From Myxococcales bacterium (GTDB lineage: Bacteria; Myxococcota; Myxococcia; Myxococcales; Myxococcaceae), in NCBI GenBank assembly GCA_020846875.1, contig JADLDB010000009.1, forward strand, positions 1 through 64,000: DNA of 64,000 bases. The letters are read 5' to 3'. This document shows, piece by piece, positions 22,012 through 27,455 of this stretch. Numbering within the stretch: position 1 is the first letter of the stretch; every line of letters starts with the position of its first letter. The position numbers were made by a program, and so were the translations under genes. The notes beneath the pieces are model-generated. The model saw only the letters and a program-made list of their open reading frames with translations, did not search any database and was not told where the DNA came from.

Positions 22012-23253
22012 GTGCGCATCGAGACTCTCTGCACCGGCGACGAGCTGCTCACCGGCCTCATCAGCGACACCAACAGCCGGCACTTCCAGACGCGGTTGCT
22101 GGAGCGCTGCGGCCTCACCGTGGCGCGGGGCGTGGTGGTGGGTGACGTGCGCGAAGAGCTGGTGGAGGCGCTCGCCGCGGCGGCCGCGCGCTGCGACGTG
22201 GTGCTGGTGTCGGGCGGACTGGGCCCCACCTCGGACGATCTGACGGCGGAGTGCGCGGCGCGCGCAGCGGGCGTTCCCCTGGTGCAGAGCGCCGAGGCCC
22301 TGGCTCACCTCGAGGAGCGCTTCCGCCTGCGCGGCCTTACGCTGACCGACAACAACCGCCGCCAGGCGCTGGTGCCCGAGAGCGCGGAGGTGGTGCTCAA
22401 CCCCGAAGGCAGCGCGCCGATGTTCATCCAGCGGCGGGGGCGCTGCACCCTCTTCTTCGTGCCCGGCGTACCGGCCGAGTACCGGCACCTGGTGGACACC
22501 CAGGTGGTGCCGCGCGTCGCCGCGCTGGCCAAGCCGCCCTCGGTGCGGGTGCTCAAGGTGCTCAAGACGGTGGGCCTGCCCGAGTCGCACCTCGACGCGC
22601 GCGTCCGCCCGCTGGGAGAGAAGTACCCGGCGCTCACCCTGGGCTTCCGCACGCACCTCCCGGAGAACCACCTGAAGCTGCTGGTGGAGGCCCCGACGGC
22701 GGCGCAGGCGCGGGCGACGCTCCAGCAGGTAGAGACAGAGGCCCGGGCGCTCTTGGGCGCGCACGTCTTCGGCGCGGACGAGGAGACGCTGCCGGGCGTG
22801 GTGCTGGCGGCGCTCAAGGCGCGGCGTCAATGGCTGGCGGTGGCGGAGAGCTGCACCGGCGGGCTGGTGTGCGAGCTGCTCACCAGCGTGCCGGGAGCGA
22901 GCCAGGCCTTGTACGGCGGCGCGGTGACGTACGCCAACGCGGCGAAGACGACGTGGGCAGGCGTCCCCGAGGGCATGGTGGCGCAGTTCGGCGCGGTGTC
23001 GGAGGAGGTCGCGGCGGCGCTGGCCAGCGGCATCCGCGCGGCGGCGGGCGTCGCGTGGGGGCTGGCCGTCACCGGCATCGCCGGGCCGGGTGGCGGCTCG
23101 GAAGCCAAGCCGGTGGGCACCGTCTTCGTGGGCGTGGCGGGGCCTCCGGGCGTGGCCGTGCAGCAGCACCGCTTCCTCGGCGATCGCGAGCGGGTGCGGC
23201 GCTTCTCTGCGCACGCAGCCCTGGACGCCCTGCGGTTGGCGCTGCCGGGCTGA
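22012..23253 (+). CDS. cinA: CinA-family protein (nicotinamide-nucleotide amidohydrolase)
   Basis: The protein has 413 residues. The N-terminal MoaB/MoeA-like domain has LCTGDELLTGLISDTNS and the SGGLGPTSDD motif (COG1058). The C-terminal PncC domain has AESCTGGLVCELLTSVPGAS and AVTGIAGPGGGSEAKPVGTV, the signature of NMN deamidase. CinA salvages or destroys damaged NAD derivatives and is linked to competence genes in some bacteria; no competence gene is visible here. GTG 22012 is chosen because it matches the family N-terminus (VRIETLCTGDEL); upstream codons in frame have no better start. Confidence 0.95.
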   Translation: MRIETLCTGDELLTGLISDTNSRHFQTRLLERCGLTVARGVVVGDVREELVEALAAAAARCDVVLVSGGLGPTSDDLTAECAARAAGVPLVQSAEALAHLEERFRLRGLTLTDNNRRQALVPESAEVVLNPEGSAPMFIQRRGRCTLFFVPGVPAEYRHLVDTQVVPRVAALAKPPSVRVLKVLKTVGLPESHLDARVRPLGEKYPALTLGFRTHLPENHLKLLVEAPTAAQARATLQQVETEARALLGAHVFGADEETLPGVVLAALKARRQWLAVAESCTGGLVCELLTSVPGASQALYGGAVTYANAAKTTWAGVPEGMVAQFGAVSEEVAAALASGIRAAAGVAWGLAVTGIAGPGGGSEAKPVGTVFVGVAGPPGVAVQQHRFLGDRERVRRFSAHAALDALRLALPG

Positions 23254-23261
23254 GGGGCAGC

Positions 23262-23858
23262 TCAACCCCACTTGCAGGTGAACCGGGCCTGGGTCGCTTC
23301 CAGCGCGGCCAGCTCCACCGCGACCGCCTTGCCGCCTGCCGCCTCGACGGCGGCGTGAAAGGCAGTCGAGTAGGCCCGGGCGATGAGGTGGGGCAGCAGA
23401 CCCGGCGGGTATTCGAGCTGAAGTACGGCCTCGCCTTCGCCCCGAAAGCTGACCGAGAGCGTCATGCCCTGGTGAAACTGCGACCAGCGGCCCGCCGCGT
23501 TCTTGAGAAGAAAGCCGGGGGACACCACCATCATCAGCATTCGGTAGAGGGGACCGGTGAGCAGCCGGCGGTTGGCCCGCAGCGCCGCCGAGAGGAAGGC
23601 CTCGTCAGAGGAGTAGACGAGCCCACGCACGGCCAGCAGCAGCGCGGTCGCGTGGACCTCGGGAACCCAGCTCGAAGGGGAGAGCGTCTTCGAGAGCAGG
23701 CCCTCGAGGGGCGCCGGCACCTGGCCCTCGAGCCCGTACGTCGGCATCTCCTTCATGAACTGCTGCACCACCGACGCCTTCTGGAGCTGACCGGGGTAGC
23801 TGGCCAGGCCCGCGGGGATGCCCTGGAGGTACTGCTCCATCGCCGAGAGATCGCTCAC
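23262..23858 (-). CDS. unknown protein, possible DUF2378/TIGR02265 myxobacterial family
   Basis: The 198-residue protein has no signal peptide. The middle (FLSAALRANRRLLTGPLYRM followed by LMMVVSPGFLLKNAAGRWSQFHQG) has the feel of TIGR02265, a Myxococcales-restricted family of unknown function, with conserved R..FP/YP-like sites. The resemblance is by eye only. The end (GGKAVAVELAALEATQARFT) is amphipathic. It begins 55 bp from a large inverted repeat in the gap to the hydrolase gene upstream. Confidence 0.6.
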   Translation of the reverse strand: MSDLSAMEQYLQGIPAGLASYPGQLQKASVVQQFMKEMPTYGLEGQVPAPLEGLLSKTLSPSSWVPEVHATALLLAVRGLVYSSDEAFLSAALRANRRLLTGPLYRMLMMVVSPGFLLKNAAGRWSQFHQGMTLSVSFRGEGEAVLQLEYPPGLLPHLIARAYSTAFHAAVEAAGGKAVAVELAALEATQARFTCKWG

Positions 23859-23913
23859 CGTGGAACCCTCCTGGGCAGCGCGAGTGCGCCTGGTAGGCAG
23901 CGAGTATGGCAGA

Positions 23914-23997
23914 AGAGCTGCAGTGGCCGGCCCCGCACGAGCGCGCTGTTTCGTCTGGGGGGGTCCTGGTGATGGCGGAGCCGGCCGCTGCAGCTCT
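23914..23997. repeat. 18-bp inverted repeat around a 48-bp loop
   Basis: AGAGCTGCAGTGGCCGGC (23914-23931) is the reverse complement of GCCGGCCGCTGCAGCTCT (23980-23997), with a single mismatch that would be a G-U pair in RNA. On the minus strand the hairpin would start about 21 bases after the stop of the secreted hydrolase and end 56 bases before the next start. No U-tract follows the stem, so it is not a classical terminator. It could be an mRNA stabiliser or processing site, or a transposable-element relic. Confidence 0.7.
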
Positions 23998-24018
23998 CCT
24001 GGGGCTGCGCGCCTGAGA

Positions 24019-24942
24019 TCAGCGCACGTCGTGCACGAAGGCGTGCAGGAGCAACGCGAAGAACACCGGCCGCTCCCACTGGACCGCGTGTCCGGTCTCA
24101 GGCACGTAAAACACTTGGTGGTGCCACAGCGTGGGGAGCTGCGCCGCCAGTCCGCTCAAGAAGGCCGGGTTGACGAAGGCGTCGCGCTGCCCGGCGATCA
24201 ACGCCACCGGCACCGTCAGGGCTTTGATGGCCGCCACCTCGTCGCGAAAGGTGGGATCGAGTCCGGCCGCAGCGGTGGCGACCGCAAGTCGGATGCCTGG
24301 ATCGGCGCGGTACCCGGCCTGGAAGAACTCAGCCGGGATGCCGGGGTAGCCAGGGCGGAAGAAGGCCCGCACGTAGTCGTCGATCATCGGCTGGGTCAGG
24401 TTCGGCACGAAGCCGTACTGCACCGCGGCGCCGGCGGGGCTCTGCGCGGGTGACAGGAGCGGCGGCGGCAGCTCCGGCGCGAACCCCAGGGGGGCCGTGC
24501 CGATCAACAGGTAGCCCTTCACGTTGGGCAGCAGGTGGGAGGCCTGCAACACCAGATCGCCGCCCAGGCTCCAGCCGACCAGCACCCCTTCCTCCGCGTG
24601 GACCTCGTGCGCCGCGAAGGCGATCGCCTGCGCGAGGTAGCCCGCGCTGTAGGCCGGCGCGTCCTCCGAGTTCCCACAGCCGGGGAGCTCGACCGCGGCG
24701 ATGCGCAGCGGACCTGCGAGCAGCGGCGCCAGGGTGCGCGCGAAGTAGTCGGCCGAGGCGGTGTTTCCGTGCACCAGGAGGACTCCCGGCCCCTGCGTCC
24801 CCTGGCCCTCGTAGACGGCGAGGTGCACGCCTCCGAAGTCGAGGTACCTCGTCGGCTGAAGCGGAACGCCGCCGCCATGCGCCCAGGCCGCCGAGGCGAA
24901 CAGGCACGCCACCGCCAGCGTGGTCATCAAGCTCCGTCTCAC
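24019..24942 (-). CDS. secreted alpha/beta hydrolase downstream of the LuxR solo
   Basis: The 307-residue product has a clear signal peptide (MRRSLMTTLAVACLFASAAWA, cleaved before HGGG). The fold has the oxyanion region LLVHGNTASAD, nucleophile elbow VGWSLGGD (Ser125), acid GQRDAFV (Asp254) and His ETGHAVQWE (His285), so all three catalytic residues are present. GTG 24942 is preferred, with AGGGAGG five bases upstream; an earlier GTG at 24957 is less well placed. It lies 87 bp after the LuxR gene on the same strand, so it may be co-transcribed or controlled by it. The substrate is not known. Confidence 0.88.
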   Translation of the reverse strand: MRRSLMTTLAVACLFASAAWAHGGGVPLQPTRYLDFGGVHLAVYEGQGTQGPGVLLVHGNTASADYFARTLAPLLAGPLRIAAVELPGCGNSEDAPAYSAGYLAQAIAFAAHEVHAEEGVLVGWSLGGDLVLQASHLLPNVKGYLLIGTAPLGFAPELPPPLLSPAQSPAGAAVQYGFVPNLTQPMIDDYVRAFFRPGYPGIPAEFFQAGYRADPGIRLAVATAAAGLDPTFRDEVAAIKALTVPVALIAGQRDAFVNPAFLSGLAAQLPTLWHHQVFYVPETGHAVQWERPVFFALLLHAFVHDVR

Positions 24943-25009
24943 GGCAGCCTCCCTCACGGCGTGGAAATCACGCGCGAAGAGACGATGCCGCAGAGGCCTG
25001 CCCGCTCGA

Positions 25010-25035
25010 CAGTACGGAAACGCGTACCGTCACTG
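25010..25035. repeat. imperfect inverted repeat at the luxR 3' end
   Basis: CAGTACGG (25010-25017) pairs with CCGTCACTG (25027-25035), with one bulged base and a nine-base loop. It overlaps the LuxR gene's stop codon and precedes the hydrolase gene by about 67 bases. It lacks the T-run of a terminator, and its core (CAGT...ACTG) is not the CTG-N10-CAG pattern of classic lux boxes, so its role (pause site, attenuator or protein-binding site) is open. Confidence 0.35.
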
Positions 25036-25767
25036 GATCAAGCGCCGGCGCAGCGCTTCGGCCACGGCGTGCGCGCGGGTCGAAACGCCCAGCTTCCGGC
25101 GCACCGCGCGCAGGTGCTTGTCGACGCCGTGCTCAGAGATGCGCATCAGCACGCCGATCTCCCAGTCCGACTTCCCTTCCGAGGCCCAGCGCAGCGCCTC
25201 CAGCTCCCGGCCGCTGAGCCTCACGCCCGCCGGCCCCGGCTGAATCCCCTTGAGCGCGGCGGCGCGGGCGATCGCCGCCATCCCGAGCAGCGGGAGCAAC
25301 CCGCACACCCGCGCAGACAGCTCGAGGTCGCGACCCGCGAGGGAGTAGACGACCGCCCTGCCCCCGAGCGTCGACATCGCGCCGGTGAAGCCCTGCTTGA
25401 GGCCGAACTCGCACGCCTCTCCGAGTACCCGGCGCCCGGCCCGGGAAGCCACCGGGAGGTCGCTCCAGAGAAAGCCCTCCGGGCGGCGCTGCACCTGCGC
25501 CATCGCCGGATCCTGTCCCACGTACTTGTGCGCGGCGTACCGCGCCAGCCACTCGACGGGGTAGTCGTGGAAGAGGACGTGGCCCAACTGCTCCTCGGAG
25601 GAGAGCTCCCGCGCGGGCACCAGCGTCGCGATCACCCGCTCGACGCCGTGCGCCGACGTGGCCCGCACCAGCTCGCGGGTGATGTCCTCCGGCCCCTGCG
25701 CGAACTCGAGCCGTTGCAGGAATTGCTGCGCGCCCCGAAGCACCCCCACCAGCTCGGCGTCGGCCAT
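25030..25767 (-). CDS. LuxR-type regulator with intact acyl-homoserine-lactone-binding domain (solo)
   Basis: The 245-residue protein has an N-terminal autoinducer-binding domain (about 20-165) and a C-terminal LuxR helix-turn-helix (184-238; LSGRELEALRWASEGKSDWE). All six invariant ligand-pocket residues of LuxR/TraR proteins are present with TraR spacing: Trp73, Tyr77, Asp86, Pro87, Trp101, Gly129. The helix-turn-helix invariants Glu188, Leu192 and Gly198 are there too. No luxI-type synthase lies in the window, so this is a solo that probably reads signals from other bacteria. The promoter side has a TTGACT (25803-25798) and palindrome GCCGCCAGGCGGC (25778-25790). The secreted hydrolase follows on the same strand. 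Confidence 0.92.
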   Translation of the reverse strand: MADAELVGVLRGAQQFLQRLEFAQGPEDITRELVRATSAHGVERVIATLVPARELSSEEQLGHVLFHDYPVEWLARYAAHKYVGQDPAMAQVQRRPEGFLWSDLPVASRAGRRVLGEACEFGLKQGFTGAMSTLGGRAVVYSLAGRDLELSARVCGLLPLLGMAAIARAAALKGIQPGPAGVRLSGRELEALRWASEGKSDWEIGVLMRISEHGVDKHLRAVRRKLGVSTRAHAVAEALRRRLIQ

Positions 25768-25889
25768 GCGCCATCATGCCGCCAGGCGGCGCGACGCAGT
25801 CAATGAATTCCCAAAGCCTGGCCTGGCCGGCCGCGCCTGTCGTACGCCGCGCTTGAGCTTGCCCGGCTCAGAGTGGAGGCTTCGCCGCC

Positions 25890-27455
25890 ATGAGCGACAC
25901 CGAGGCGACGGCGACTGCTCCCACCAACGCGCCGGGGGCGAAGAACGTGGTGCACGCGGGGCTGGGCATGTTCGGCTGGGCGTACCGCGTCGAGCTCCTC
26001 CTCTTCCTCTGCGCCTTCTGCCTCTTCGCCGCCTTCTCTTCCCAGCGCTTCCTGCGCCAGAGCGCGGCGCCCCACTTCGTGTACCAGGCGAAGGCGTGGC
26101 TGGACGGGCGCGCGGACATCGATCCCCAGGTGCTGCCCAACATCGAGGACTGGGCCTGCGTGCGCGAGGTGAACGGGGTGAAGTCGCGGTGCGAAGGCGC
26201 GCTCCGGCCGGGCGATCGCTGGTACTCCTCGTTCCCCTGGTTCCCCGCGGTGGTGATGCTGCCCTTCGTGCTGGTGAACGGCTACCAACTCAACGACACC
26301 AGCTTCGGGGTGATCATCGCCGCGCTGGCCCTGGCGCTCTTCTACGCCCTGTTGCGGCTCCTCTCGGAGCTCGAGTCCAGCCGCCGGTCCCCCCGAGAGA
26401 ACGCGGCGCTGGCGGCGCTCCTGGGCTTCGGCACGCTCTTCTTCTACGCGGCCATCCGCGGGGAGGTGTGGTTCTCGGCCGAGGTGATGGGCGTGGCGCT
26501 GACGGCGCTGTACCTGCGCAACGCGGTGGGCGCGCGGCGGCCGGAGCTGGCGGGCCTGTTCTGGTCGATGGCGGTGCTGACCCGCACGCCGCTCTTCTTC
26601 ACCGGCATCTTCTTCGCCCTGGAGGTGCTGGTGCCCACGCGGGGCAAGCGGGCGGAGGAGTGGAGCGCCTTCCTCAAGGCCCCGAAGGAGAAGCTGCGGG
26701 TGCTGGGCCGCTTCGCGCTTGGCGCCGCGCCGCTGGGGCTGCTGGCCGTCGCGTACAACCAGGCGCGCTTCGGCAGCCTCACCGAGTTCGGCCACCGCTT
26801 CCTCTACAACAACCGCGTCAACGTCGACATCGACACCTGGGGGCTGTTCCACCCGCACTACCTGACGCGCAACCTCGACGCGGCCTTCCTGAAGCTGCCG
26901 CTCTTCCACGGCGAGCCGCTCACGCTGTCCTACGACGCCTGGGGCCTGTCGCTGTTCCTCACCCTGCCCCTGCTCGCGCTGGCGGTGGTGCCCGCCGCCA
27001 CGCCCCGGCGCGCGTGGACGGCGCTGGCCGCGATGGGGGGCGTCTTGCTGGTGTCGGCGCTCTTCCCTGCGCTGCCTCCGCCTGCCGGAGAGCCGCCCAT
27101 CGGCTGGCGGGCCCCCGCGGCCTGGCTGGTGCTGGCCCTGGCCCTCGGCACGCTCGTCCACTTCGCGCGCGAGTGGGTGAAGGCGCCGGACGCGCCGCGG
27201 CTCGCCTTCCCCCTGCTGATCACCCTCGCCTGCTGCATGGTGCCCGGGCTGCTGTACCAGAACACCGGCTACGCCCAGTTCGGCTTCCGCTTCAGCATCG
27301 ACTACACGCCGTACGTGGTGCTGCTGGTGGCGCTGTCCGGCTGGGGGCTGAAGAAGCCGGTGCCGCTGGCGCTCGCCGCCCTGTCGCTGGTGGTGAACTT
27401 CTGGGGCGCGGTCGCCTTCCGCGGTTATACGGAGCTGGTGCGGCGCTGGAATTGA
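25890..27455 (+). CDS. polytopic membrane protein, GT-C glycosyltransferase-like
   Basis: The 521-residue protein has about ten hydrophobic helices. A conserved-looking loop after helix 1 (SSQRFLRQSAAPHFVYQAKA, then LDGRADIDP) and a second loop (GDRWYSSFPWFPAVVMLPF) match the type of acidic/aromatic loops in GT-C family membrane transferases that use polyprenyl-linked sugars. The link is by layout only; no family signature was proven. It diverges from the LuxR gene across 122 bp and is followed at 18 bp by a DUF1285-like gene. Confidence 0.65.
   Translation: MSDTEATATAPTNAPGAKNVVHAGLGMFGWAYRVELLLFLCAFCLFAAFSSQRFLRQSAAPHFVYQAKAWLDGRADIDPQVLPNIEDWACVREVNGVKSRCEGALRPGDRWYSSFPWFPAVVMLPFVLVNGYQLNDTSFGVIIAALALALFYALLRLLSELESSRRSPRENAALAALLGFGTLFFYAAIRGEVWFSAEVMGVALTALYLRNAVGARRPELAGLFWSMAVLTRTPLFFTGIFFALEVLVPTRGKRAEEWSAFLKAPKEKLRVLGRFALGAAPLGLLAVAYNQARFGSLTEFGHRFLYNNRVNVDIDTWGLFHPHYLTRNLDAAFLKLPLFHGEPLTLSYDAWGLSLFLTLPLLALAVVPAATPRRAWTALAAMGGVLLVSALFPALPPPAGEPPIGWRAPAAWLVLALALGTLVHFAREWVKAPDAPRLAFPLLITLACCMVPGLLYQNTGYAQFGFRFSIDYTPYVVLLVALSGWGLKKPVPLALAALSLVVNFWGAVAFRGYTELVRRWN

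Follow-up and report, generated by a model that had tools for sequence, protein, structure and literature searches.

A myxobacterial AHL-type LuxR with a lux-box-like candidate operator ahead of an AidH-like hydrolase gene: a possible sense-and-quench module

Signal-induced quorum quenching is known from Rhodococcus, in which the lactonase QsdA is induced by the signal that it destroys, via the TetR-like repressor QsdR (PMC6262395). Among myxobacteria, Vitiosangium has a described AHL-type LuxR (WP_108076247.1) and Haliangium a putative one; AHL synthases occur in Archangium and Vitiosangium (PMC7862692). LuxR homologues, not necessarily with the AHL domain, were found in most Myxococcaceae by a survey (PMC7694542). 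No receptor bearing an AHL-binding domain is known in M. xanthus or Cystobacter ferrugineus, yet both respond to AHLs (PMC7862692, PMC9257966), and the perception of prey signals by myxobacteria is therefore a standing question. The locus described here offers three elements in a myxobacterium: a receptor whose pocket is complete, a named candidate operator and one predicted output gene.

The DNA analyzed (the window, 64,000 nucleotides) comprises bases 1 to 64000 of contig 9 in a genome assembly of 200 contigs that totals 7.06 Mb and has an estimated completeness of 100%. In the window, cinA ends at position 23253 and a membrane-protein gene starts at 25890, while in five relatives, whose cinA and membrane-protein products are 56 to 70% identical to those of the window, the second gene follows cinA within about 260 bp. 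The cinA side was not recovered in a sixth relative, so it is outside this count of intact junctions. The insertion is filled by three minus-strand genes, encoding LuxR, an alpha/beta-hydrolase and a 198-aa protein (Table 1), and the first two lie on one strand within this one insertion, 72 bp apart. Contamination was rejected because the gene order of the family is conserved on both flanks and the GC content is genome-like; the insert sits in a 204-kb contig.

Table 1. Features of the inserted locus, in window coordinates
Feature	Position	Strand	Basis or remark
Insertion of 2.6 kb between cinA and membrane-protein gene	23254..25889		Junction intact in five relatives
198-aa protein, third gene of insertion	23262..23858	minus	Weak, sub-threshold resemblance to DUF2378/TIGR02265 (myxobacterial family)
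AidH-like alpha/beta-hydrolase, putative exported AHL lactonase	24019..24957	minus	Sequence, fold, catalytic residues
Lux-box-like dyad CGGTACG-CGTTTC-CGTACTG, candidate binding site	25010..25029	minus	Comparison with kin dyads
luxR, AHL-type LuxR receptor/regulator, 245 aa	25030..25767	minus	Pfam, solved-structure alignment, kin alignment

The luxR gene called in the preliminary description is real, with an intact open frame, and both domains of its product scored above the curated Pfam cut-offs and far beyond chance: an autoinducer-binding domain (Autoind_bind, residues 27 to 165, 4e-20) and a LuxR-type helix-turn-helix (GerE, residues 184 to 236, 1e-11). The solved structures of CviR, LasR, RhlR, TraR and SdiA align over most of its length, with CviR as the best solved AHL receptor (2.3e-19). 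The equivalents of TraR W57, Y61, D70, P71, W85 and G113 are W73, Y77, D86, P87, W101 and G126, and all are present. The preliminary description had placed six such pocket residues at exactly the TraR spacing; Trp73, Tyr77, Asp86, Pro87 and Trp101 stand where it put them and are mostly kept in kin, but the glycine is Gly126, not Gly129. Gly126, in KQGFT, occupies an invariant column among kin and corresponds to the LasR glycine in GLT, while kin carry V, F, I or M in the column of Gly129, which was rejected as the invariant residue. The exact spacing was thus a coincidence, apparent because the segment from W to G is shorter in the window LuxR. The CviR alignment adds two residues that had been overlooked, Tyr69 (CviR Tyr80) and Ser142 (CviR Ser155), which we take to be hydrogen-bonding pocket residues with the roles that they have in CviR and TraR. 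Glu188, Leu192 and Gly198, put forward earlier as DNA-binding invariants, are in their expected positions and mostly kept in kin. Judged from its domains and pocket, the window LuxR is very likely an AHL receptor. In LuxR solos that respond to plant signals (OryR/PsoR type), the equivalents of TraR W57 and Y61 are replaced and a pip gene lies beside luxR; this type was rejected here, since W73 and Y77 are kept and the neighboring hydrolase is closest to AidH.

The luxR gene is the sole PF03472 match of its genome. The observation that the window holds no synthase can be extended to the whole genome for LuxI, as a search with PF00765 gave no match at E <= 0.001. This absence is credible because the same search rang above the cut-off in two genomes of the same family, as it did in one other genome of the phylum. 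The LuxM/AinS profile (PF17327) also had no match in this genome, in a search that gave no positive-control match anywhere. Synthases of the HdtS type belong to PlsC, a family that is present universally. Domains, pocket, the single PF03472 match and the lack of LuxI together support the original view that this myxobacterium has a LuxR solo whose pocket is of the AHL type, and its suggested role as a receptor for reading prey signals is plausible. Across the phylum, 20 of 195 genomes matched PF03472 at E <= 0.001, and only six of these (G000, G116, G117, G156, G164 and G041) matched strongly across the greater part of the domain. Matches to the window LuxR among the 60 closest relatives mostly covered the helix-turn-helix alone, the single longer one being 27% identical, and a search of an 85k-genome collection by short peptide patterns returned no close relatives. 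Two genomes of the same family (G116 and G117; loci L002 and L003) encode a different AHL-type LuxR (PF03472, 1e-32) that keeps the pocket residues W, Y, D, P and W; it forms its own branch in the tree, and the 16 kb around it contain neither luxI nor an AidH-like gene. Another genome of the order (G041; loci L006, L021, L023 and L024) has several PF03472-type LuxRs with a changed pocket, Phe replacing Trp73 and Cys or Ser replacing Trp101, and these may therefore bind another ligand. In a further family of the phylum, a 3.3-Mb genome (G166, locus L027) gave a LuxI-like match at 2.3e-10, which possibly represents an additional AHL synthase.

The nearest kin of the window LuxR were found in Hyphomicrobiales: 42 of the 397 genomes searched in this order matched it at E <= 1e-28, and identity reached 42% along almost its entire length. 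A luxI gene lies within about 1.5 kb in 19 of 24 kin luxR loci. In a maximum-likelihood tree, the window LuxR fell inside the Hyphomicrobiales clade (support 97/96), apart from the other myxobacterial AHL-LuxRs; its exact placement is to be taken loosely, given a long branch and a choice of Hyphomicrobiales sequences made by similarity to it. The natural reading of these comparisons is that luxR would have been captured from Hyphomicrobiales by horizontal transfer. A phage origin was rejected: the phage LuxRs among the matches listed are at most 30% identical, and viral contigs gave only DNA-binding domains. The locus of Rhizobium sp. CCGE532 itself has two related luxR genes flanking luxI, in the order luxR-luxI-luxR (L042, 8001-8714 and 9761-10447).

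The dyad between luxR and the hydrolase gene, GGTACGCGTTTCCGTAC, has 7-bp arms on either side of a 6-bp spacer, which is the layout of a lux box. It follows the luxR stop codon without a gap and ends 67 bp ahead of the likely hydrolase start. Taken by itself, without the kin comparison, the dyad is not significant, and its weight comes from being matched in kin rather than from its symmetry alone. The LuxR of Rhizobium sp. CCGE532 shares 35% identity with that of the window, and in this strain GGTACGCTTTTCCGTACC comes directly after the luxR stop codon, with luxI beginning 57 bp further on. The two dyads agree at 16 of 20 positions, a score that none of 20,000 gap shuffles reached, for a match spotted after some 30 kin dyads had been inspected. 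All 16 fixed positions are identical while the LuxR proteins share only about 35% identity, and the location straight after the luxR stop codon in both species is a second coincidence beside the sequence match. The shared 17-mer, GGTACGCNTTTCCGTAC, has one perfect site in the 7-Mb genome, the dyad itself, where base composition predicts 0.0016; the closest other site differs at two positions, and weaker sites turned up no more often than in a reversed control. Among 207 loci, the 17-mer was limited to those overlapping the window stretch and to two Rhizobium loci whose LuxRs are near-identical. The 64 kb contain the core TACG-N6-CGTA a single time, at the dyad; in kin, core sites with no more than one mismatch are about 17-fold denser over the 220 bp that follow luxR than within the luxR genes themselves. 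The preliminary description had suggested testing DNA binding upstream of luxR, near 25768-25889, but the best dyad there scores 6/8, a value reached in 97% of shuffles, and the candidate site is instead the one after luxR. A promoter and terminator scan yielded no recognizable -10/-35 promoter or terminator. The dyad is thus a site of about 20 bp with the lux box layout, upstream of the hydrolase gene and common to kin receptors; LuxR is predicted to bind it and probably controls the hydrolase gene through it.

The likely start of the hydrolase is the GTG at 24942, five bases past GGGAGG, and the N terminus read from it, (M)RRSLMTTLAVACLFASAAWA, resembles a signal sequence by inspection, so that the enzyme is putatively exported. 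When its sequence was compared with solved structures, the Ochrobactrum AHL lactonase AidH came first at 2.2e-17, ahead of the next entry at 2.8e-8. A structure model built on 36 sequences (pLDDT 89.6) gave AidH at Foldseek ranks 1 to 8, and AidH also aligned best by structure, with a Z of about 36 and 1.9-2.1 A for some 264 residues, compared with a Z of 31 for the runner-up. The protein has a Ser-His-acid triad, an HGN oxyanion motif and a GWSLGG elbow, with Asp as the triad acid where AidH has Glu219, and it keeps the nucleophile, the histidine, Asn33, Trp101, Leu103, Phe221 and Tyr160 of AidH. The Tyr160 equivalent lies in IDDYVRAFF; in AidH, this cap-domain residue contacts the lactone oxygen (PMC3532132). 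None of the eleven myxobacterial control hydrolases has Asn33, and Tyr160 is found in one of them or in none, according to the alignment used, although Tyr160 is common to only part of the wider AidH-like family, which often has Phe there. Overall identity to AidH is only 26%, and the equivalent of the tunnel residue His106 is Asp. On balance, fold and catalytic residues moderately favor an AHL lactonase, at an identity that leaves the substrate unsettled. Within the phylum, an ortholog was present in one of 195 genomes (G098, 49% identity, no LuxR beside it) and a more distant relative in another (G069, 36%). None of 80 AidH-like loci had an AHL-domain LuxR beside the AidH-like gene. A few of these genes adjoin LuxR-type DNA-binding proteins lacking the AHL domain, not clearly more often than expected for such common genes; in L096 (a Geobacter MAG) and in L115 and L144 (Flavobacteriales), the two are directly adjacent on the same strand, and the LuxR-type neighbors in L115 and L144 have a PAS domain in place of the AHL domain.

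The AidH-like neighbor and the operator between the two genes, both missed in the preliminary description, indicate a specific output for this LuxR. A foreign AHL, made by other bacteria, would enter the cell and be bound by LuxR, and the AHL-bound receptor would act at the dyad and switch on the hydrolase gene; activation is likelier than repression because of the spacing between the dyad and the start codon. The exported hydrolase would then open the AHL lactone ring, amounting to signal-induced quenching. We regard such a receptor-regulated quorum-quenching module, in which LuxR changes transcription of the lactonase gene in response to foreign AHL, as an evenly balanced proposal. The ancestor of receptor and operator would be a Hyphomicrobiales luxR-lux box-luxI unit whose luxI position came to be held by the hydrolase gene. 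Tentatively, and a little short of evenly balanced, we suggest that a predator captured this rhizobial switch and put an exported AHL lactonase where luxI had stood, turning a positive feedback into the signal-induced destruction of a signal made by others.

Part of this proposal would hold even if the enzyme had another role. An AHL-responsive LuxR could regulate a hydrolase that cuts some other ester or lactone, such as a prey lipid, and so serves predation and not quenching; alpha/beta-hydrolases vary widely in substrate, and the low identity to AidH, the altered tunnel residue and the signal-sequence-like start all fit such an enzyme. We consider this unlikely, as AidH clearly leads the matches in both sequence and fold and the equivalents of Asn33 and Tyr160 are retained, unlike in nearly all of the myxobacterial controls.

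The two remaining explanations separate the receptor from its neighbor or deny it a function. Eavesdropping LuxR solos are common, SdiA being an example, and AHL-LuxR and AidH-like genes were adjacent in no other locus examined, so that LuxR might simply read foreign AHLs and control genes elsewhere, with the hydrolase an unrelated neighbor from the same or a separate event. The kin operator is, however, kept exactly between these two genes, and the genome has no other close copy of the dyad, so no other LuxR target is apparent; such a solo seems improbable. That the receptor is a captured, no longer functional fragment of a luxR-luxI unit would agree with the absence of luxI, the long LuxR branch and the occurrence of the pair in one genome only, which leaves the pair itself without conservation. 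This relic is very improbable, given an intact frame with its functional residues kept, a GC content at the genome level and an operator that has stayed the same at every fixed position despite the divergence of the proteins. The sense-and-quench module remains the reading that we prefer. The open-access papers searched, whose silence is no proof of absence, contained no LuxR-lux box-lactonase unit in a myxobacterium.

Each part of the locus resembles a described system and departs from it. The LuxR-LuxI pairs of Hyphomicrobiales (Rhizobium sp. CCGE532, Ciceribacter thiooxidans and Mesorhizobium ciceri plasmids) have LuxRs 33 to 42% identical to that of the window over the whole protein, with the same pocket residues, and CCGE532 shares the dyad straight after the luxR stop codon; there, however, luxI follows the dyad, whereas in the window the AidH-like hydrolase follows it in a genome without LuxI. 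The other myxobacterial AHL-type LuxRs (Vitiosangium, PMC7862692; L002-L006 and L021) are similar to the window LuxR in not being clustered with a synthase, but those of L002-L006 and L021 fall outside its clade, and the DNA examined around them holds no AidH-like gene. AidH of Ochrobactrum (PMC3532132) shares with the window hydrolase its fold, triad and the Asn33 and Tyr160 equivalents; the window enzyme differs in overall sequence, in having Asp for both Glu219 and His106, in its signal-sequence-like N terminus and in the luxR gene upstream. In its proposed logic, the locus is closest to QsdR/QsdA of Rhodococcus erythropolis (PMC6262395), where an AHL-detecting regulator switches on an AHL-destroying lactonase. 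Signal-induced quenching is thus already known, and the comparison suggests that what would be new is the set of parts: QsdR is a TetR-like repressor, while the window combines a LuxR-type receptor, a lux-box-like site and an AidH-like enzyme. If the proposal is true, this locus would be a LuxR-type counterpart of the QsdR sense-and-quench switch of Rhodococcus, and a regulatory circuit would have been inverted by the exchange of one gene behind a retained operator.
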